From contig CALMTS010000105.1 of assembly GCA_937872685.1 (NCBI GenBank), forward strand, positions 1 to 41,560: a DNA stretch of 41,560 nucleotides, in the 5' to 3' direction. Under the pieces are notes generated by a model. That model was not told where the DNA came from. It saw only the letters and a list, made by a program, of their open reading frames with translations, and did not search any database. Origin of the DNA: an uncultured Desulfomicrobium sp. (GTDB lineage: Bacteria; Desulfobacterota; Desulfovibrionia; Desulfovibrionales; Desulfomicrobiaceae). Below are positions 3,185 through 36,167 of the stretch, piece by piece. The position numbers and the translations under genes were made by a program. Within the stretch, counting starts at the first letter, position 1; each line of letters opens with the position of its first letter.

Positions 3185-4417
3185 GTGCTCAAACGGATTG
3201 AAGACCTGATCGGAACCGACTGTCCTGACCTCCCGGCCCTGCTGGACGGTTTGCCCATGGGCATCGTCATGCTGGACGACGACGGCAGGGTCCTGATGCT
3301 CAACAAGGCTCTGGAAAACCTGACCGGCTACCGCCGCGAGGAAGTCCGCGGGCTGCCCTGCAGACACGTGCTGCGCAGCCGCGCCTGTGTCCAGGGCTGT
3401 CCCCACGGATCCGGGGAAGGGCCGGGGGCAGGAATCGAGACCGATTGCATCAACCGTCACCGCCGCAAGATCCCCGTGCGCATAACCCCCGTGCGTGTCT
3501 GCGACGGCAACAACCGCCCCGTATGCGTCCTCGACGTGGTCGAGGACCTGACCGCCCTGCGCGAGACCGAGGCGCGACTGTCCCAGGCCACGGGCCAGGG
3601 GCAGATCATCGGCCGCAGCCAGGCCATGGAGAAGCTTCTGCGCGTCGTGCCGGTCATAGCCCAGCACGACGCGCCGGTGCTCATCACCGGCGCGACCGGC
3701 ACGGGCAAGGATCTCCTGGCCGAAGCGGTGCACAAAGCCTCGCCGCGCTCGCGGGAGCCTTTCGTGCGCTTCAGCTGCGGCCCCATGCCCGAAGAACTCC
3801 TCGACGCCGAACTCTTCGGCCGCGTGCTGGACGGCTCCGGAGAGTTCAAAGCCGGACGCTTCCAGCAGGCGCAGGGCGGCACCCTCTACCTGTCGGAGAT
3901 CGCCGACCTGCCCCTGGCGCACCAGGGCAGGCTGGTGCGCTTCCTCGACGAGGGAACGGTGCTGCCCGTCGGTGCGATCAAGCCCGTGCGGGTCAACGCC
4001 CGGCTCATGGCCTCCACGGCCGAATCGCCGGAAAAACTGGTTCAGGACGGCCGGCTGCGGGAGGATCTCTTCCACCGCATCTCGGCCACGCGTCTGCACC
4101 TGCCGCGGCTCAAGGATCGCGGCGAAGACCTGGACTTCCTGCTGCACCACTTTCTGGGTCACTATGCCGCCCGGTTCAAAAAGAACATCACCGGCATCAG
4201 CCCCAAGGCGCTGCTCAGGCTCAACGAGCACGAATTCCCGGGCAACGTGCGGGAACTCAAGAACATCATGGAATTCGCGGCCATGGTCTGCACCGGCGAC
4301 AAGATCCGGACCGAACACCTGCCCGGCCACCTGACCGGCCAGTTCGACGCCGGCCCGGCACAGCGTTCCGCCGAAAAGGTCCGCAAACCGGCCCGAAAGC
4401 ACACGGAGGAGCGGTAA
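3185..4417 (+). CDS. PAS-AAA+ protein with degenerate sigma-54 activator motifs
   Basis: The 410-residue protein has an N-terminal PAS domain (about 20-125) with a Cys cluster (C59, C68, C72) of a kind seen in sigma-54 regulator PAS domains, then an AAA+ domain (about 140-385). Walker A is kept (GATGTGKD, 169-176), but Walker B reads LYLSE (234-238) with Ser in place of Asp. The GAFTGA loop is absent: after ELFG the segment RVLDGSGEFKA is about three residues shorter than usual and shows no GAFTGA. The sensor-II segment FPGNVRELKN remains. The C-terminus is a basic tail with no Fis-type helix-turn-helix. It therefore probably cannot remodel sigma-54 holoenzyme itself and may be a sensory or mixed-hexamer partner for the divergent activator (inference). 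GTG start with GGGAGAG upstream. Confidence 0.88.
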   Translation: MLKRIEDLIGTDCPDLPALLDGLPMGIVMLDDDGRVLMLNKALENLTGYRREEVRGLPCRHVLRSRACVQGCPHGSGEGPGAGIETDCINRHRRKIPVRITPVRVCDGNNRPVCVLDVVEDLTALRETEARLSQATGQGQIIGRSQAMEKLLRVVPVIAQHDAPVLITGATGTGKDLLAEAVHKASPRSREPFVRFSCGPMPEELLDAELFGRVLDGSGEFKAGRFQQAQGGTLYLSEIADLPLAHQGRLVRFLDEGTVLPVGAIKPVRVNARLMASTAESPEKLVQDGRLREDLFHRISATRLHLPRLKDRGEDLDFLLHHFLGHYAARFKKNITGISPKALLRLNEHEFPGNVRELKNIMEFAAMVCTGDKIRTEHLPGHLTGQFDAGPAQRSAEKVRKPARKHTEER

Positions 4418-27178: not shown

Positions 27179-27577
27179 TCACGCGTTGCGGCGTTCGAGG
27201 AGGCGGTCGTGGAGCACGTCGATGCGCTCCAGCAGTTCATCCACGGAACAGGGCTTGAGCAGGAAATCGTTGGCGCCGGCGCGCATGGCTTCCAGGGCCA
27301 TGTCCGTATGGGCGTGACCGGACAGGATGATCACCCCGAAATCCTCGCCCTTCAGGCGGCGCATCTCCCGCAGCACCTCCACCCCGCTCAGGTCCGGCAT
27401 CTTCATGTCCAGGACCACGATGTCCACCGCATTCCCCCTGAACCAGTCCAGGCCGGCCCGCCCCGAAGGCGCCGTGGCCACATCGAGCTTCTTGCGCCGC
27501 AGGTACTTGACCATGGTGCCCAGAAACTCCTCCTCGTCATCCACAAACAAGAGCTTGCAGTCTTCCAGAGAACTCAT
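27179..27577 (-). CDS. single-domain response regulator
   Basis: A 132-residue receiver with acidic residues D13/D14 (VDDEEEF), acceptor Asp in VVLDMKMPDLSG, the Ser/Thr position (ILSGHA) and Lys in LLKPCSVDEL. It has no output domain. It is the last gene of the minus-strand operon that contains a TauE/SafE permease and two membrane proteins. Its kinase is not in this operon; the kinases of region A are possible partners, since its sequence resembles their receivers. GGAGAGG precedes the ATG. Confidence 0.92.
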   Translation of the reverse strand: MSSLEDCKLLFVDDEEEFLGTMVKYLRRKKLDVATAPSGRAGLDWFRGNAVDIVVLDMKMPDLSGVEVLREMRRLKGEDFGVIILSGHAHTDMALEAMRAGANDFLLKPCSVDELLERIDVLHDRLLERRNA

Positions 27578-27592
27578 GGCCTCTCCATGGGA

Positions 27593-28393
27593 TCATGCCT
27601 GCACGGGACAGGCGATGTCACCCAGCCGCACGGGCGAATCCGCGGGAATCCGTATTCTGATTTCATTGCGGTCGCAGGACAGCACCGTGCCCTGTCCGAG
27701 GTCGCCGCGCAGGGGATGCGTGAACCTGAACGGCGCACCCTCTTCCACGCTTGAGCACGAGCGCATCTCCACTTCCGCTTCCAGGTAGCCGTCAATCTTC
27801 CGCAGCCTGAATATCTCCCCGCACCCGTGCTCCGCAAGCAGTTCATGCCACTTCCTGCCCAGCAGGTAATTGCCGCCGGCTGTGGCGAGTCCGAAAACGC
27901 CAAGCACCGCGGCCACGATGAACGGGTCGGCGCCGGTCCAGCGTGTCACGAGGGAGGGGGAACCGGCCTGCCTGGCCTTGGCGCTGGCGAAGACGCGGAC
28001 GGTGAAGACCAGGGCCGGATTCTGCTTTTCCCCGAACCTGTCGCGCACCTTGAAAATGTAGGTTCCGGGCCGCGGGACGGGGCTCACTTCGATGTGCCCG
28101 CGCCACATGCCGCCGCCAAAGAGATATCCCTTGAAAACGGCTTCCGGAACCAGACGCAGGGAACCGTCGAAAGCGCCGCCTTCGACCACGAAATCCTCGA
28201 TCCGTTCGGTTTTCGGGGGCATGGGGCCGCTCAGCGCATAGCGCTCCCCCGGGATGAGCCGGACCTGCCCCGATCCGCCGAAAATCCCGCCGCGCAGGCC
28301 GTCGAAAAGCACCAGAAGGGCCAGGCCCAGAAGGACCATGGCCACGGTGCCGCTTGCGCGCTGGAGGCGCCAGATCCGTTGGGCACGGATCAC
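27593..28393 (-). CDS. membrane protein of unknown function with extracytoplasmic middle (266 aa)
   Basis: I do not recognise the family. Predicted helices lie near residues 12-31 (VAMVLLGLALLVLFDGL) and about 160-180 (PFIVAAVLGVFGLATAGGNYL). Between them is a beta-rich segment with GPMPPKTERIEDF and PRPGTYIFKVRDRFGEKQN, which looks like a periplasmic carbohydrate-binding-like or Ig-like fold; the C-terminal about 80 residues are cytoplasmic and beta-rich. I chose the GTG at 28393, which overlaps the TGA of the preceding gene by two bases and has GGGGA upstream; the GTG at 28408 lacks a ribosome site. It is coupled to the small membrane protein before it. Confidence 0.75.
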   Translation of the reverse strand: MIRAQRIWRLQRASGTVAMVLLGLALLVLFDGLRGGIFGGSGQVRLIPGERYALSGPMPPKTERIEDFVVEGGAFDGSLRLVPEAVFKGYLFGGGMWRGHIEVSPVPRPGTYIFKVRDRFGEKQNPALVFTVRVFASAKARQAGSPSLVTRWTGADPFIVAAVLGVFGLATAGGNYLLGRKWHELLAEHGCGEIFRLRKIDGYLEAEVEMRSCSSVEEGAPFRFTHPLRGDLGQGTVLSCDRNEIRIRIPADSPVRLGDIACPVQA

Positions 28394-28623
28394 GCCGCGT
28401 CCCCGCACATGGAATCCGCGCTGCGCCGCAGCTTCCGCTTGGCCGCGAACCCCAGGACAATGATGGGCAGCAGCAGGCTCCCGAAGACCTTGAGGAAGAC
28501 AAGGGTGAACTCCTCGGGATTCTGCGCGGCCATGTACATGGCAACGGTCAGCGCCCCGAGAACCAGGGCGTTGATGGACAGGACGAGGATCTTGTGCAGC
28601 AGGAAAAATCTGTATTCGCTCAC
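28390..28623 (-). CDS. small membrane protein (77 aa)
   Basis: Unrecognised. It begins at a GTG (28623) with AAGGAG six bases upstream, giving VSEYRFFLLHKILV. Two hydrophobic helices (about 8-31 and 41-62) are followed by a basic tail (AKRKLRRSADSMCGDAA). It overlaps the next gene by four bases at its 3' end. With that gene it may form a small membrane complex coupled to the TauE/SafE permease upstream. Confidence 0.75.
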   Translation of the reverse strand: MSEYRFFLLHKILVLSINALVLGALTVAMYMAAQNPEEFTLVFLKVFGSLLLPIIVLGFAAKRKLRRSADSMCGDAA

Positions 28624-28695
28624 GTCGGGCTCCTTAAGGGGGGATGCGCGGGGCGTCCAGGAGGGCGGTTGTCCGCCCCGCGCATCCACGAGGCG

Positions 28696-29307
28696 TTACT
28701 TCTTGAAGATATCGGTCTTGCTGACGTTCATGAAACGGATGGCTTCGCCTTCCGTCTTGTAGTACACCCGCACCTCGTCGCCGGCGTCCCAGGTGTTCTC
28801 GGGGAAGCCGAAGTACTCTTCAGGCACGCTGAAGGTGGCGAGCATCTTCTGGCGTCCGGAATAGATGGTGATGGTCTTCTTGTCCTGGTCGACCACGGGG
28901 AACTTCTTGGCCGCGTTCTTGTCCTTGTCGAAAACCAGGGGGTGGTCCTTGGCGATGTCTTTCTGCACATCCACGATGGCGATGGGCAGATCCTCAAGGG
29001 CCTGGTTGTTGGGGTTGAAGATGCGGATGACCTTCTTGTCCACGTCCAGCTTCATGCGGTACCCGGCCTTGGGGTCCGCTCCGCGCTCGGCCGGATCCGT
29101 AGGCATCTTGTACGTATGCGGAGGCAGGATCGAATAGTCGGGATTCTGGGAATCCATGGCCTTGTCCTGGATCACGGTCACGGTCTGTTTGTCCTTGTCG
29201 AAGGCGATGACCCGCCCCTGATCCACCTTGCCGTATTCATCGCACCCAAGGACACCGAAGGTCAGCAGCGCGATGGCGAGTCCGAGCAGTATGCGTCTGG
29301 TATTCAT
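28696..29307 (-). CDS. lipoprotein, DUF4881-like (203 aa)
   Basis: The signal peptide ends in a lipobox (FGVLGC, C22); Asp at +2 would favour inner-membrane retention by the enterobacterial rule, which may not hold here. The mature part is hydrophilic and rich in DKDK-type motifs (VIAFDKDKQTVTVIQDK, FDKDKNAAKK, VDQDKKTITIY), consistent with a small beta-rich domain seen in sulfate reducers and annotated DUF4881; I am fairly but not fully sure of the family name. The ATG at 29307 has AAGGAG six bases upstream; a TTG at 29313 is not needed. It lies 24 nt after the permease gene. Confidence 0.85.
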   Translation of the reverse strand: MNTRRILLGLAIALLTFGVLGCDEYGKVDQGRVIAFDKDKQTVTVIQDKAMDSQNPDYSILPPHTYKMPTDPAERGADPKAGYRMKLDVDKKVIRIFNPNNQALEDLPIAIVDVQKDIAKDHPLVFDKDKNAAKKFPVVDQDKKTITIYSGRQKMLATFSVPEEYFGFPENTWDAGDEVRVYYKTEGEAIRFMNVSKTDIFKK

Positions 29308-29331
29308 GTTCAACTCCTTTCAGATTGCGCG

Positions 29332-30387
29332 CTAGTTCTTGCGGTTCTTGGCTGCCAGTTCCATCTTCACGCCCTGGACCATGCGCACGAAGATGTAGAG
29401 GGACATGCAGCTCACCAGGCCGAGGACCAGGACCGTGGACGCGCTGTTGAGCAGATCCTTGTAGGCGGGCAGCCAGGGCTGGACCAGCTTCAGCAGGATG
29501 GACACCGCGCAGCCGATGACGGCCATGCCGAAGGCGATGCGGATGCCGTAGCCCTTGATGTACTTGGTGGCGACAGCGCCGACCTGGGCGCCCATGGCGG
29601 CGCCGACCAGCATGATCATGGCCGCGACGAGTTCGGTGCGGCCCTTCCAGGTGTAGGTGGCCGCGCCGTAGAGGCCGGAGATGGCAACTTCGAAGAGGTC
29701 GGTGCCGACGGCGACATGGGTCGGGCAGCCGATCATGTAGATCAGGGCGGGCATGCGGATCAGACCGCCGCCGATGCCCAGGATGCCGGCCAGCCAGCCG
29801 GTGAAGAAGCTGACGAAGATGGGCAGCCAGGCGGAACAGTAGATGCCGGCTTCCTTCAGGTGAACCATCGGGGGAATCTTGATCTTGTGGAGAGCCTTGT
29901 GCCACTCGACGCCGGTCTCGAGGCCGGTCAGCTTCTCGCCGCGGGCGAGGGCAGCGCGTTCCTTGGCCCTGCGCTTGGCGACATCATGGAAGACCATCCA
30001 GGCGATGAAGGCCAGCAGGAAGATGTAGATCCAGCGCACGACCTTCTCGACGCTGCCGATGCGTTCCAGCCACATGACCATCTGGGCCCCGGCCTCGAAG
30101 CCGACCACGGTGCCGACCAGCATGATCAGGCCCAGTTTGTAGTCGACGTTGCCGAACTTGCCGTGGCGCATGGTGGAAATGAGGGACTTGCCCGCCATGT
30201 GCGCGATGTCGGTGCCGATGGCGAAGGCCATGGGGAAGCCGAGGATGTTGAGGCCGGGCGTGACCATCCACGCGCCGCCCATGCCGAAGAAGCCGCCGAT
30301 GATGCCCACGCCGACTCCGAGGATGATCAGGCCGGGCCAGAAAATTTTAACGCCTGCGATGGGCATGAGGACATAGAGCCAATCCAT
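29332..30387 (-). CDS. TauE/SafE family permease (second copy, 351 aa)
   Basis: A polytopic permease with the family motifs GGFFGMGGAWMVTPGLNILG near the N-terminus and GILGIGGGLIRMPALIYMIG in the second half, plus a central loop of about 60 residues (FHDVAKRRAKERAALARG onward). It differs strongly from the permease at 1742-2728, so it is not a recent duplicate. AAGGAG precedes the ATG. It is second in its operon, after a small membrane protein, and followed by the lipoprotein. Substrate unknown; sulfur oxyanion, sulfonate or organic acid are the family options. Confidence 0.92.
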   Translation of the reverse strand: MDWLYVLMPIAGVKIFWPGLIILGVGVGIIGGFFGMGGAWMVTPGLNILGFPMAFAIGTDIAHMAGKSLISTMRHGKFGNVDYKLGLIMLVGTVVGFEAGAQMVMWLERIGSVEKVVRWIYIFLLAFIAWMVFHDVAKRRAKERAALARGEKLTGLETGVEWHKALHKIKIPPMVHLKEAGIYCSAWLPIFVSFFTGWLAGILGIGGGLIRMPALIYMIGCPTHVAVGTDLFEVAISGLYGAATYTWKGRTELVAAMIMLVGAAMGAQVGAVATKYIKGYGIRIAFGMAVIGCAVSILLKLVQPWLPAYKDLLNSASTVLVLGLVSCMSLYIFVRMVQGVKMELAAKNRKN

Positions 30388-30417: not shown

Positions 30418-30717
30418 TTAGTGTTCCGCCAGTTCGCGGGACTTCAGGTCGATGCCGATCCAGCCCATGATGATGTCGGCCAGGACGCCGAAAACCACGC
30501 CTGTGAGCGGGATCAGGATGACCGTCAGGATCATGAACTGAAAATGACTCTCATTGTACAGATTGGCCCACCAGGCCAGAACCCCGGTCAGCTTCCGGGT
30601 GTCCGCCACCAGCACGATGGGGGCCGCGCCGCCACCGCCGGCGGCCAGGGCGAAACCGGGACACAGCAGGACCATTGCCATCAGTGACCACCAGAGCCTG
30701 TTCAATCTTGCTTTCAT
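30418..30717 (-). CDS. small membrane protein preceding the second permease (99 aa)
   Basis: Unrecognised family. A signal-like or first helix lies at about 9-26 (LWWSLMAMVLLCPGFALA) followed by a Gly-rich stretch (AAGGGGAAP) and a second long hydrophobic segment (FQFMILTVILIPLTGVVFGVLADIIMGWIG). I chose the second of two adjacent ATGs (30717) because GGAGG at 30723-30727 is five bases from it and only two from the first. As with the first permease operon, a small membrane protein is paired with TauE/SafE. Confidence 0.78.
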   Translation of the reverse strand: MKARLNRLWWSLMAMVLLCPGFALAAGGGGAAPIVLVADTRKLTGVLAWWANLYNESHFQFMILTVILIPLTGVVFGVLADIIMGWIGIDLKSRELAEH

Positions 30718-31006
30718 CATAACCTCCAGAATGTTTGCTTCCCCGGCCCGGCCGCAGCCCCTTTCCAGGCTGCCGGCCAGGGCCTCTCCTCTGCCGTTTC
30801 GTCTCTACAACTCCTCCCGCCGTGCAATTTCAGCGGGTTAATCACGCATCTGGAGCCGAAAAAGCAAAGGTCGAGCCAACCTGATCACGCATTATTTTCG
30901 TTCTGTATTCCGGAGAGTTAAACATTCTTGTTGCGCAATTTTTCACAAGCGTGCACTATATGCACAACTCTTTCGCGATACATTCCCGGCAATCCGGAGG
31001 CCAGTC
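30718..31006. promoter_or_regulatory. divergent control region with palindrome and direct repeats
   Basis: No gene is supported in this gap between the permease operon and the membrane-bound activator. It contains a perfect dyad GTGCA-CTATA-TGCAC (30951-30965), 41 bp before the activator's ATG, and a direct repeat ATCACGCAT (30841-30849 and 30884-30892) 43 bp apart, about four helical turns. The right half is AT-rich. GGAGG at the right end is the activator's ribosome site. The pattern suits an operator or activator-binding array for one or both divergent operons. Confidence 0.5.
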
Positions 31007-33586
31007 ATGCCCTACTCCTACCCACCCATGCTCGACCCGGTGCTCAATCTCGAGAAGCCCGTGAAGGAATGGAGCATCACGCGCATCCTCCTGCTCCTGG
31101 GCACGCCGCTGGTGGCCGGCGTGCTCCTGGTCATGACCGTCTCGACATACCGGATCTCCTCCCACTACCTGAATCGCGCCTACGCGCGAAACGCCCACAC
31201 CAGGGCGCTGGCCCAGGCCCACGAACTGCAGCAGCTGCTCAAGGACGCGCGCTATGAGATCCAGAACCTGGCGCGCTCCGACGTTTCGGCCCAGGCCATC
31301 CAGAAATACATGATGGACAAGCCCGCGACAAAGCGGAACAAATACTGCGAGATCGCCTTTCACGGCACATCGCCCGAGGACAACTACGTCCTGCTGAACA
31401 CGGGGGAAAAGGTCTGGAAGGTCCCGGACGAGCAGGCCGCGGCCGTCAAGTTCGGCGCCTTCACGCGCAAGGAAAGGATCGGGGGCAAGATCGAGGACTT
31501 CGTGCAGATCGAACAGCCCGTGCAGGTCTACTACACATCGGTTCCGTACCTGGGTTCCGTGGAGAACATGGAGTTCTCGGTCATCAGGCTGAGTACGCCG
31601 GTGCTGGACGCGGAGAAGAAGTTCCGGGGATACCTGACATTGTCCGTCGATATCATCGAGATTCAGCGGATCATGACCACCTTCTCCTCCAGGCAGTCGC
31701 CCCTCTATATCTTCCCCCAGGAAAAGGAGCAGGTCAGGAGCTTTTTCTTCGATGCCGCGGGATGGCTCATCTGCGAGACGGGTCAGGCCAGCAACCCGCA
31801 CCTCAAGATCTCCATCGACGACATCCGCACGGGTCTGCAGGGCGATCTCGGCCGCCCGGGGTTTGCGACCGCGTTCCGGCCGAATCCGCAATACGAGAAA
31901 TACTGGGCTGTCGTGTCTGCGGTGCAGGCCGGAAAAGACGGCGAGATCGGATTTGCGAACTTCCTGAACGACCCGAACAACTCGGGCAGGGACCATTACC
32001 TCTATTATGTTCCGATCCGCTTCCAGGAGGAGGCCGCAGGGAACCCGGTCATCATCGGAGGGATAGGGTGCATCGACACGAGCTTCATGCTCAAGGCTTC
32101 GCGCTACGAAGTGGCCATGGCCCTCGGCATCTCCTGGGCCGTGGCGGTCCTGCTCACCGTCGCCGCATTCGTGTACCTGAATCGTAGAATCAGCAACCCG
32201 CTGAAACGGCTCACGTTCGCCACGGAAAAACTCGCCCTGGGAGACGACACATCCACCCTGGAACTCACCCCGCTCCCCAAGGAGCTGCGCCATCTCCAGC
32301 ACGCCATCAACATCCTCCTGCTCCAGTTGCAGGCGGCCCGCAACGAGACCCGCATCCGCCAGGGCCTGATCTTCGAGGAGATGCAGCGCCAGCCCGTCAG
32401 CCTCGACACGCTGGCTGAGAACGCGTCATCCGGCGAGACGGCCCTGTTCGCCGAAAAGGCCTTCGGCATCGTGGGTTCAAGCCAGGCGGTGCGCAACCTC
32501 AACGCCATGATCCACAAGGCGGCCCAGGTCATGGCCGACGTGCTGATCATCGGCGAAACCGGCACGGGCAAAGAGCTCACGGCCGAAGCGATCCACCGCG
32601 CCAGCACCCGCGCCACGGGCCCCTTCATTTCCATCAACTGCGGAGCGCTGGACGAAAACCTGCTCATGGACGCGCTCTTCGGGCATGTCAAAGGGGCCTT
32701 CTCCGAAGCCAAGGCGGACCGCAAAGGCGCATTTCTCGCGGCTTCGGGCGGCACGCTGCACCTCGACGAAATCGGCAACGCGTCCCCCAAGGTGCAGCAG
32801 GCCCTGTTGCGGGCCCTCGCGGCGCGCAGGATCCGTCCCCTGGGCAGCGATCAGGACCAGGCCTTCGACGCGCGCGTCGTGGCCGCCACCAACGTCGACC
32901 TGCTTGAATGCGCACGCAACGGAACGTTCCGCGAAGACCTCTACTACCGGCTGGCCGTCATCACCATCTCGACCCCGCCCTTGCGCGATCGCAAGGAGGA
33001 CATCCCCGCCCTGGTCCGTTCGTTCATGCGTGAGCACACCCGGGGAACGACTCCGCCGGACATCAGCCGCGGGGCCCTGGACAAACTGCTGCAGCACGAC
33101 TGGCCGGGCAATATCCGCGAATTGAAGAACTGCATCACGCGCGCCATGACCTTTGCCGAGGGCAACCTCCTGCTGGCCGACCACATCGAATTCGGCCAAC
33201 ACCGGACAGCCGGGCCCGCAACGGAACCCGCCGCAGCCCAGAACGCCCCCGCCCAATCCAAGATGCCGACAGGCGCCCGGAACGGGAGCGGCCCGGAGCC
33301 GCTTCCCGCGGCGCCGTCGGAAGTGCCGCAAGGCACCTCCGCGCAGAAGCCGTCCGTACTGCCCGAGGCGGTCCTGGCCACCCTGAACCCGCGGCAAGTC
33401 AAGGCCTGGCCCTCGATTGCCGCCAATGGTGGCACGAACCGTGCTCTGTATGAAAGCGCCGTGGGGGAAGAGATTTCGGTCAGAACCGCGCAATACGATT
33501 TGCAGGATCTGGTCAACAAGGGCTTGCTGAAGAAAACAGGCAAGGGCCCGTCCTCGCGGTACGTCGTGGCCGTCCGTACTCCATAA
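31007..33586 (+). CDS. membrane-bound AAA+ activator-like regulator (Cache-HAMP-AAA+-winged helix)
   Basis: The 859-residue protein has a first membrane helix (about 26-46), an extracytoplasmic Cache-like domain (about 50-365), a second helix (about 370-390), HAMP (about 390-445), and an AAA+ domain (about 485-720) with Walker A GETGTGKE (516-523) and Walker B LHLDE (584-588). The sigma-54 contact loop reads GAFSEA (563-568) instead of GAFTGA. After a Pro/Ala-rich linker (about 725-790) the C-terminus (about 800-859) looks like a winged helix (RTAQYDLQDLVNKGLLKKTGKG) and not a Fis-type domain. One protein would thus join sensing, ATPase and DNA binding at the membrane. GGAGG precedes the ATG. 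It is divergent from the second permease operon and followed by the PEP-synthase-like gene. Confidence 0.9.
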   Translation: MPYSYPPMLDPVLNLEKPVKEWSITRILLLLGTPLVAGVLLVMTVSTYRISSHYLNRAYARNAHTRALAQAHELQQLLKDARYEIQNLARSDVSAQAIQKYMMDKPATKRNKYCEIAFHGTSPEDNYVLLNTGEKVWKVPDEQAAAVKFGAFTRKERIGGKIEDFVQIEQPVQVYYTSVPYLGSVENMEFSVIRLSTPVLDAEKKFRGYLTLSVDIIEIQRIMTTFSSRQSPLYIFPQEKEQVRSFFFDAAGWLICETGQASNPHLKISIDDIRTGLQGDLGRPGFATAFRPNPQYEKYWAVVSAVQAGKDGEIGFANFLNDPNNSGRDHYLYYVPIRFQEEAAGNPVIIGGIGCIDTSFMLKASRYEVAMALGISWAVAVLLTVAAFVYLNRRISNPLKRLTFATEKLALGDDTSTLELTPLPKELRHLQHAINILLLQLQAARNETRIRQGLIFEEMQRQPVSLDTLAENASSGETALFAEKAFGIVGSSQAVRNLNAMIHKAAQVMADVLIIGETGTGKELTAEAIHRASTRATGPFISINCGALDENLLMDALFGHVKGAFSEAKADRKGAFLAASGGTLHLDEIGNASPKVQQALLRALAARRIRPLGSDQDQAFDARVVAATNVDLLECARNGTFREDLYYRLAVITISTPPLRDRKEDIPALVRSFMREHTRGTTPPDISRGALDKLLQHDWPGNIRELKNCITRAMTFAEGNLLLADHIEFGQHRTAGPATEPAAAQNAPAQSKMPTGARNGSGPEPLPAAPSEVPQGTSAQKPSVLPEAVLATLNPRQVKAWPSIAANGGTNRALYESAVGEEISVRTAQYDLQDLVNKGLLKKTGKGPSSRYVVAVRTP

Positions 33587-33608: not shown

Positions 33609-36167
33609 ATGGGATTCCGGGATCTGATCCAGGCGCTGCTCCCCCAAAAAAAAGCCGGGCAGGAGAACGAAGCCGTGCTGCGTTCCTTCCGCCTGCAATA
33701 CACGCACTTCAAGGATCTGCTCCTGTCCAACGCGGAACTCGGCACGATCATGGCGGAGATCGACGAGAAGCTGAAGGGGTCGGCCCTGTTCGGCATGAAC
33801 GAGATCCGGGCGCTGGCCACCAGGAGCGTCTTCCACACCATGCGCATGGTCACCGCCCTGAACGCCATTTCGGGCGACCGCTACGGCACGCTGCCGGCCA
33901 TGGTGGAACACATCAACGCCCGCATCAGCTCCATCCTGGACAGCAAACCCCAGCCCGTCATCACGGAATACACGTTTCCCATGTCGGCCGTGAACAAAGG
34001 TCTGGTGGATGTCGTCGGCGGCAAATGCGCAAACCTCGGAGAAATGCGCAATCGCGCAAACATCCCCACTCCGGCCGGTTTCGCGATTACCACGGCCGCC
34101 TACGAAGCATTTCTGCGCGGCGAGGGTCTGCGGGATGAAATCTTGAAGCAGCTCCGCGAAGCCAGGGCCGACGCCCCCGCCACCGTGGTCGCCGCGTCCG
34201 AGGCCATATTCAGGACCATCAACCGTGTCGGCGTCCCCGAAGACGTCATGCGCGACATCCTGGACGCCTGGGACCAGAGCTTTGCCGACCCCGCATCAAC
34301 CCGGGCGGCCTTGCGTTCCAGCGCCGTCGGCGAGGACGGGATCCTCTCCTTCTCCGGACAATACAGGACCATCCTCGGCGTCACGCGGGAAACACTGGAA
34401 GACGCCTTCCGCGAGGTCCTCGCCAGCCTCTTCTCGCCCCGCGCCATCACCTACCGCATCCACCACGGCGTGTCCTTCGAGCAATGCGCCATGGGCATGG
34501 CCTGCATCGAGATGGTGGACGCCCTGGCCAGCGGGATCATCTTCTCGCGCCACCCCGTGAACCCCCTGTCCGACGAGATGGTCCTCAATGCCATCTGGGG
34601 CCTGGGGGCCTATGCCGTGGACGGGATCATCGAACCCGACACCTGGCACGTCAGGCCGGGACCCGTCCCCCATATCGCCATGCAGCATGTCGCCGACAAG
34701 CGGGTGCGCCTCGTATCCGACGCGACAGGCAAGCATGAGGAGGCGGTCCCGGAAGCATTGCGCACCACGCCGTGCCTGAACACCGCGCAGGTCCTCGAGC
34801 TCGCCGCCATCGCGTCCCGCCTGGAAGGCCACTACCACCACCCCCAGGACATCGAATGGGCCCTGGACCGGGACGGGCGGCTCATGATCCTGCAAAGCAG
34901 GCCCATGCGGCTGGCCCACGCCCACCACAACGGCCTGGCCACCGCCGCCATCGAAGGCGCGCAACTGCTCATCGACCGGGCGGACATCGCCTGTGCCGGC
35001 ATCGGCTCGGGACAGGCCGTCCTGGCGCAAAACCTCGAGAATCTCGCCGATTTTCCGGAGGGCGGCATCCTCATCGCGCCCCACTCGCTCCCCAACTACG
35101 TCCTGGTCATGAACCGCGCCCAGGCCATCGTCACCGAGGCCGGCAGCATCACCGGACACATGGCTTCCCTGGCCCGCGAGTTCGATGTCCCGACCATCCT
35201 CAACGCCAGGCTCGCCACCACGAAAATCCTCGACGGACAGACCCTGACCGTGGACGCCATCACCGGCCGGGTCTATGCCGGGGTCGTCCCCGAACTCATG
35301 GCCTTCAAGTCGGCGCAGCGCTTCAGAATCGTTGATTCCCCGGTGCACGCCATCCTGCGCCAGGTCGCCGACCAGATCGTCCCCCTGCACCTGCTCGACC
35401 CGAAGTCGCCGGTCTTCAAACCCGAGTCCTGCACCACCCTGCACGACGTCATGCGCTTCGTGCACGAGCTCTGCTACACGGAAATGTTCCGCATCAGCGA
35501 CCGGGCCTCGGACGCCGGCGCCGTGTCCTGCCAGCTCAAGGCCAGGCTGCCCATCGACCTGCACCTCATCGACCTCGGCGGAGGGCTGAGGGACGTCGAC
35601 GGACCGTACGTATTTCCCGAGCAGGTCACCTCGGCGCCCCTGGCCGCCCTCCTGTCCGGGATGCTGCGCCCCGAGGTCCACGTTCGCGGGCCGCGCCCCA
35701 TCGACGTGGGCGGTTTCCTCTCGGTCATGACCCAGCACATGCTCGAACCCCCGACGGTCCAGGCCCAGCGCTTCGGCGAACGCAGCTACGGCATCATCTC
35801 CGACACGTACCTGAACTTCAGCTCGCGCGTGGGCTACCACTACAGCGTCGTGGACGCCTACTGCGGCGAGACCGTGTCCAAGAACTACATCACCTTCCAG
35901 TTCAAGGGCGGGGCCGCCGACGAGATCCGCCGCGAACGCCGCGTGCGCTGCATCGCCCTGATCCTGAGCCGCCTGGGCTTCACCACCGACGTGCGCGGCG
36001 ACATGACCCAGGCCCGGTTCCAGAAATTTTCGCGGGAAGAGACCCGTGAACGCCTGGACCAACTGGGCCGCCTGCTCATCGTCACCCGGCAGATGGACAT
36101 GCTCATGACCAGCGAAGCCGCCGTGACGGCCATGGCCGACAACTTCATGGCCGGTGACTACCACTAG
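33609..36167 (+). CDS. PEP/pyruvate-dikinase-like protein without PEP-binding barrel (852 aa)
   Basis: Residues about 130-435 match the ATP-grasp nucleotide-binding domain of PEP synthase and pyruvate phosphate dikinase (GGKCANLGEM, RSSAVGEDG, ILQSRP), and about 485-565 match the swivelling phosphohistidine domain with the catalytic His at H517 (TEAGSITGHMASLAREFDVP). The C-terminal PEP/pyruvate TIM barrel is absent; instead there are about 280 residues (570-852) that I cannot assign. Residues 1-120 are an unassigned helical domain. It could phosphorylate a substrate other than pyruvate or serve a regulatory role. GGGAG precedes the ATG, 22 nt after the regulator, so they are co-expressed. 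Confidence 0.88.
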   Translation: MGFRDLIQALLPQKKAGQENEAVLRSFRLQYTHFKDLLLSNAELGTIMAEIDEKLKGSALFGMNEIRALATRSVFHTMRMVTALNAISGDRYGTLPAMVEHINARISSILDSKPQPVITEYTFPMSAVNKGLVDVVGGKCANLGEMRNRANIPTPAGFAITTAAYEAFLRGEGLRDEILKQLREARADAPATVVAASEAIFRTINRVGVPEDVMRDILDAWDQSFADPASTRAALRSSAVGEDGILSFSGQYRTILGVTRETLEDAFREVLASLFSPRAITYRIHHGVSFEQCAMGMACIEMVDALASGIIFSRHPVNPLSDEMVLNAIWGLGAYAVDGIIEPDTWHVRPGPVPHIAMQHVADKRVRLVSDATGKHEEAVPEALRTTPCLNTAQVLELAAIASRLEGHYHHPQDIEWALDRDGRLMILQSRPMRLAHAHHNGLATAAIEGAQLLIDRADIACAGIGSGQAVLAQNLENLADFPEGGILIAPHSLPNYVLVMNRAQAIVTEAGSITGHMASLAREFDVPTILNARLATTKILDGQTLTVDAITGRVYAGVVPELMAFKSAQRFRIVDSPVHAILRQVADQIVPLHLLDPKSPVFKPESCTTLHDVMRFVHELCYTEMFRISDRASDAGAVSCQLKARLPIDLHLIDLGGGLRDVDGPYVFPEQVTSAPLAALLSGMLRPEVHVRGPRPIDVGGFLSVMTQHMLEPPTVQAQRFGERSYGIISDTYLNFSSRVGYHYSVVDAYCGETVSKNYITFQFKGGAADEIRRERRVRCIALILSRLGFTTDVRGDMTQARFQKFSREETRERLDQLGRLLIVTRQMDMLMTSEAAVTAMADNFMAGDYH

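Follow-up and report, generated by a model that had tools for sequence, protein, structure and literature searches.

A membrane-tethered enhancer-binding protein of the DVU0151 family predicted to activate a divergent TauE operon from a sigma-54 promoter in Desulfomicrobium

The open reading frame (ORF) at 31007-33586 on the forward strand of the window, the whole 41,560-nucleotide stretch of DNA that was analyzed, encodes an 859-aa protein with an ATG start. Our analysis indicates that this protein is very probably a one-component, membrane-tethered sigma-54 enhancer-binding protein (EBP) of the DVU0151 family, which would switch on the divergent TauE operon through its winged helix and the motif TYGCGCAA. 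The domain layout, the intact catalytic motifs, the conserved pairing with the operon, the conserved sigma-54 site, and the shared operator motif were computed, and rpoN is present in the same genome. The assignment to the DVU0151 type was made from the ORF, Pfam matches, and motif alignment, with DVU0151 of Desulfovibrio vulgaris Hildenborough as the counterpart (PMC4641369). For DVU0151, a regulator of this type with the unusual loop and the unusual DNA-binding domain had been predicted in 2015, and the regulator is therefore largely known; from the description in the main text of Kazakov et al. (PMC4641369), it is a further member of a computationally described family. New beyond that main text are the dCache assignment of the sensor, the family-wide acidic residue at position 5 of the loop, the operator motif, and a survey across the class. 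A literature search for membrane Cache-HAMP EBPs found no report, and a search for DVU0151 or the genes of its operon found no mention beyond PMC4641369 among the papers covered.

The regulator is ordered as a TM helix, a periplasmic dCache domain, a second TM helix, a HAMP domain, a PF00158 AAA+ domain, and a winged helix, all encoded on the forward strand. TM helix 1 (residues about 27-45; 31085-31141) has a hydropathy peak of 2.52 and is a continuous helix in the AlphaFold2 (AF2) model, and TM helix 2 (residues about 371-389; 32117-32173) has a peak of 2.29. The sensor region between them (residues about 49-364; 31151-32098) gave only a partial match to Pfam dCache_1, below the cutoff. The top PDB matches of an AF2 model of residues 1-460, built with 29 homologues as input (mean pLDDT of 78.3), were dCache chemoreceptor domains (Z of 18.5 for 4wy9, with 245 aligned residues and an rmsd of 3.4), at a sequence identity of only about 10%. 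On the basis of this model, a double-Cache fold is predicted between the two TM helices. The HAMP domain (residues 391-442; 32177-32332) matched PF00672 at 6.8e-06, with 26.8 bits against a cutoff of 25. The membrane Cache-HAMP-AAA+ layout proposed in the earlier note is thus borne out by Pfam, hydropathy, and AF2 structural matches.

The AAA+ sigma-54 activation domain (residues 488-654; 32468-32968) matched PF00158 (Sigma54_activat) at 2.1e-59, and its nearest PDB sequence match is ZraR (2.5e-61). Walker A, Walker B, sensor I, and the arginine finger are all present, and alignment showed the catalytic motifs Walker A GETGTGKE, Walker B LHLDE, AATN, and FREDLYYRL to be intact. The L1 contact loop, previously read as GAFSEA, was found by alignment with exactly those letters at residues 563-568 (32693-32710). 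An AAA+ lid containing WPGNIREL follows at residues 660-733 (32984-33205; AAA_lid_14, PF25601, 3.3e-20).

At the C terminus (33365-33583), the last ~70 residues model in AF2 as a winged helix with the order H-H-H-beta-beta and a Fic/MecI/Fur-like fold; the top structural match was a Fic-protein C-terminal domain (Z of 9.5, 28% identity), with MecI and Fur domains ranking next. The domain carries the conserved motif RTAxYDLQxLVxxGLLxKxGxGPSxRYV. Pfam gave no HTH_8/Fis match at this end of the regulator, and HTH_8 is present in two of the three other EBPs of the window. The fold, the structural matches, and the missing HTH_8 match agree with the suggestion that a winged helix replaces the Fis domain. 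In a plasmid search with the regulator, none of the matches listed covered more than 39% of the query, and every one of them fell within the AAA+ and C-terminal half. Full-length relatives numbered only two in a scan of genome contigs, which also picked up Planctomycetota EBPs that resemble the regulator in their C-terminal winged helix and differ from it in their N terminus and in having GAFTGA. The Planctomycetota loci L064 and L066 encode such GAFTGA EBPs, with a winged helix reading LNRRQ..., and winged-helix outputs of EBPs are therefore not confined to the DVU0151-type family.

The AAA+ domain with its lid is shared with NorR, NtrC, ZraR, and NifA, which also match PF00158. Those proteins are soluble and carry GAFTGA together with a Fis-type HTH, whereas the regulator is membrane bound and combines a GAF[S/T][E/D]A loop with a winged helix. 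The dCache chemoreceptors Tlp1, TlpA, and TlpQ resemble the regulator at the other end, with a periplasmic double-Cache fold and then TM2; in dCache chemoreceptors as a family, HAMP comes after TM2. The output of the regulator differs from theirs in being an AAA+ transcription activator and not a chemotaxis signaling domain.

Relatives at E values of 1e-90 or below were found in 183 of 348 genomes of the class and in 30 of its 59 genera, with a paralogue clade counted in, and the layout, which the earlier note took to be rare, is not rare within the class. The loop was compared across 63 distinct family proteins and reads GAFSEA in 25, GAFTEA in 23, GAFTDG in 9, GAFSDA in 2, GAYTEA in 2, WAYTEA in 1, and GAFTDS in 1. 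Position 4 is Thr or Ser throughout, and position 5 is acidic in all 63 (51 Glu and 12 Asp). Because the loop type and the winged helix are kept across these 63 proteins, the feature is not due to chance; orthologues with GAFTGA and Fis, named beforehand as the counterexample, were not found among the family proteins examined. The regulator's own genome has about 48 EBP matches, in which position 5 outside the family is mostly Gly and occasionally Ser, His, or Asn, with neither Glu nor Asp seen. A mixed collection of other organisms gave 83 EBP matches, seven with Asp at position 5 and none with Glu.

The same genome also carries a GAFTDG paralogue (G000:C403, locus L161, 2366-4891, reverse strand). 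Its clade has the same layout, a winged helix, and an acidic loop position 5 but differs from the regulator in its GAFTDG loop, in having no TauE neighbor, and in a sigma-54-like site with TTGT instead of TTGC, which points away from the gene at seven of eight loci. Elsewhere in the window, a PAS-AAA+ protein is encoded at 3185-4417 on the forward strand (PF00158, 5.2e-48); its loop column reads DGSG--, which is not GAFTGA-like, and it has no HTH match. Its sequence points to a possible non-sigma-54 EBP relative.

Upstream of the regulator and divergent from it lies a five-gene operon on the reverse strand. Its first gene encodes a 100-aa small membrane protein (30418-30720) that is conserved in TauE-linked loci. 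It is followed by a TauE/SafE (TSUP) transporter (29332-30387; PF01925, 8.2e-43) that is 62-98% identical across loci, a DUF4881 protein (28696-29313; PF16222, 2.9e-81), and, from ORF and locus comparison, a 99-aa membrane protein (28390-28689) and a 271-aa protein (27593-28408). The regulator and this operon are paired in TauE-linked orthologues across the genus, family, and order. At 4 of 20 further loci sampled, the TauE neighbor was absent, and a sigma-54-like site still preceded the regulator by about 97-112 bp. A gene for a PEP synthase-like protein (33609-36167, forward strand; PF01326, 3.6e-81) begins 22 bp after the regulator stop; it is kept beside most orthologues and is probably cotranscribed with the regulator. 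A stand-alone receiver-domain gene (27179-27577, reverse strand; PF00072) lies 15 bp after the five-gene operon and may belong to the TauE operon in the genus.

A sigma-54 -24/-12 promoter facing the TauE operon, TGGCTCGACCTTTGCT, is predicted at 30863-30878 on the reverse strand, 142 bp before the ATG of the operon's first gene. It matches 10 of 11 consensus positions, the single mismatch lying in the -24 element (TGGCTC). Sites with 10 or 11 of 11 matches point towards TauE in 32 of 35 TauE-linked intergenic regions and towards the regulator in none of the 35; first-order Markov shuffles, used as the null, reach 10 matches in about 0.25-2.5% per region. The whole 41.5-kb window contains just one other such site, within the coding sequence of the regulator. 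GAFSEA and GAFTEA orthologues alike face the same kind of site. In some genera (L148, L150, L164, L168, L204, L211, L215, and L216), a distance of 480-540 bp separates the sigma-54 site from the small membrane gene, and the extra DNA in L148, L150, L164, and L168, read by eye only, resembles a universal-stress-protein-type gene heading the operon.

A candidate operator, TTGCGCAA (30931-30938), lies 52 bp upstream of the sigma-54 site and was identified by motif enrichment and as an instance of the Gibbs motif TYGCGCAA. TTGCGCAA was found in 11 of 18 regions, where the expected number is 0.4. The Gibbs motif, which is placed between promoter and regulator and is common to related regions, scored 13.2 bits against 7.9-8.1 in shuffles (letter shuffles with fewer runs than the real data, making the margin approximate). 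A regulon search with a single composite promoter-operator pattern returned one occurrence in the regulator's own genome, at the regulator locus, and occurrences at the same locus in all seven further members of the genus that were examined and have a close orthologue; in genus members without a close orthologue, matches lay at other places. On weaker evidence, TCACGCA at 30885-30891 is a possible second operator half and TCACGCA at 30842-30848, just downstream of the -12 element, a possible third site. The three sites, at 30842, 30885, and 30931, follow one another at steps of 43 and 46 bp around the sigma-54 site, and comparable steps occur in L142 and L147. The spacing between operator and promoter differs among genera. 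TYGCGCAA would be bound by the winged helix of the regulator, the link between the two being one of position only. The computed divergent pairing, promoter, and shared operator lend support to the earlier proposal that the regulator controls the adjacent TauE operon.

The main text of PMC4641369 describes DVU0151 as a single-component EBP that has a GAFSEA loop and a winged helix (SSF46785), the latter matched in orthologues including Dbac_2039; the orthologues given are DvMF_2340, Dde_0697, and Dbac_2039. It places DVU0151 divergent from the sigma-54-dependent DVU0150-DVU0146, annotated as transmembrane transport, and reports a reconstructed binding motif. Compared by description, DVU0151 and the regulator are alike as one-component EBPs with GAFSEA, a winged helix in place of Fis, and a divergent five-gene sigma-54 operon, and the two operons agree in gene count and arrangement. 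The N-terminal region of DVU0151 was described there as conserved, with no sensor assigned in 2015, whereas dCache-HAMP with two TM helices is predicted here. That the same kind of target was predicted separately for DVU0151 in that main text counts for the sigma-54 reading.

Several observations count against this reading, namely, the effect of Glu in NorR, the TGGCTC mismatch at -24, the variable operator spacing, and the positional nature of the operator link. NorR becomes constitutively active with Asp or Asn at the position in question and nonfunctional with the Gly-to-Glu substitution G266E (PMC2941729). The G266E result would fit a GAFSEA loop that makes no sigma-54 contact, in a protein regulating sigma-70 promoters as TyrR, DhaR, and HupR do. 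However, the sigma-70-type EBPs named in PMC3162934 have deletions or position-4 changes, and the same paper gives Ser at position 4 in BkdR and Asp at position 5 in FlgR as variants of validated activators and lists Glu at position 5 as putatively functional. Strong sites also face the paired operon at all but 3 of the 35 loci, before GAFSEA and GAFTEA orthologues alike. Loss of sigma-54 function was rejected because the promoters are conserved, and we regard a lost contact as extremely improbable. The move away from sigma-54 raised in the earlier note is accordingly not upheld: the same operon is faced by the same kind of promoter whether the regulator has Ser or Thr at position 4, and the catalytic motifs are intact. 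The BkdR, FlgR, and NorR variants make Ser at position 4 unremarkable and leave the fixed Glu at position 5 mildly puzzling: either the outcome in NorR depends on its context or the DVU0151-type family has compensating changes. GHVKGAF also stands before GAFTGA in L024, an EBP of the same genome, so the residue three positions ahead of the loop is not an obvious compensating change. The invariant acidic residue might also mark a modified mode of sigma-54 contact, compensated by changes elsewhere in the ring, that arose in membrane-tethered EBPs with no direct gating of the loop by the sensor, but we consider this unlikely.

The sigma-54 promoter could alternatively serve another EBP of the genome, where about 48 candidates are available, with the regulator acting elsewhere. 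The pairing of regulator and operon across families, the uniqueness of the composite site in the genome, and the occurrence of the operator motif together with that pairing argue against this, and we judge it very unlikely. A dual role, in which the regulator activates the TauE operon and represses its own gene, was proposed because operators lie close to the regulator's own start. The operator is 24-29 bp before that start in L149, L151, L152, L153, and L209, in some of which -35/-10-like elements, read by eye, precede it, and TTGCGCAA of the window is 76 bp before the regulator ATG. Nevertheless, a sigma-70 promoter scan of the window's intergenic region passed no candidate, and the shared intergenic region would account for the operator placement as well; we put the dual role forward only tentatively.

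As a sigma-54 activator of the divergent operon, the regulator would bind a putative small ligand through its periplasmic dCache domain, and the signal would run from TM2 through HAMP to the AAA+ domain. The AAA+ ring may then assemble on TYGCGCAA operators through the winged helix and, upon ATP hydrolysis, the GAF[S/T]EA loop would remodel sigma-54-RNA polymerase at 30863-30878 by direct contact. The expected outcome is that the divergent five-gene TauE operon is switched on. These predictions provide a near-complete wiring diagram of sensor, operator, promoter, and target for a type of regulator carried by roughly half of the genomes sampled from the class, by some of them through the paralogue. 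The 63 natural proteins, all acidic at the loop position whose change to Glu abolished NorR function, are, in addition, useful for understanding what the sigma-54 contact loop tolerates.
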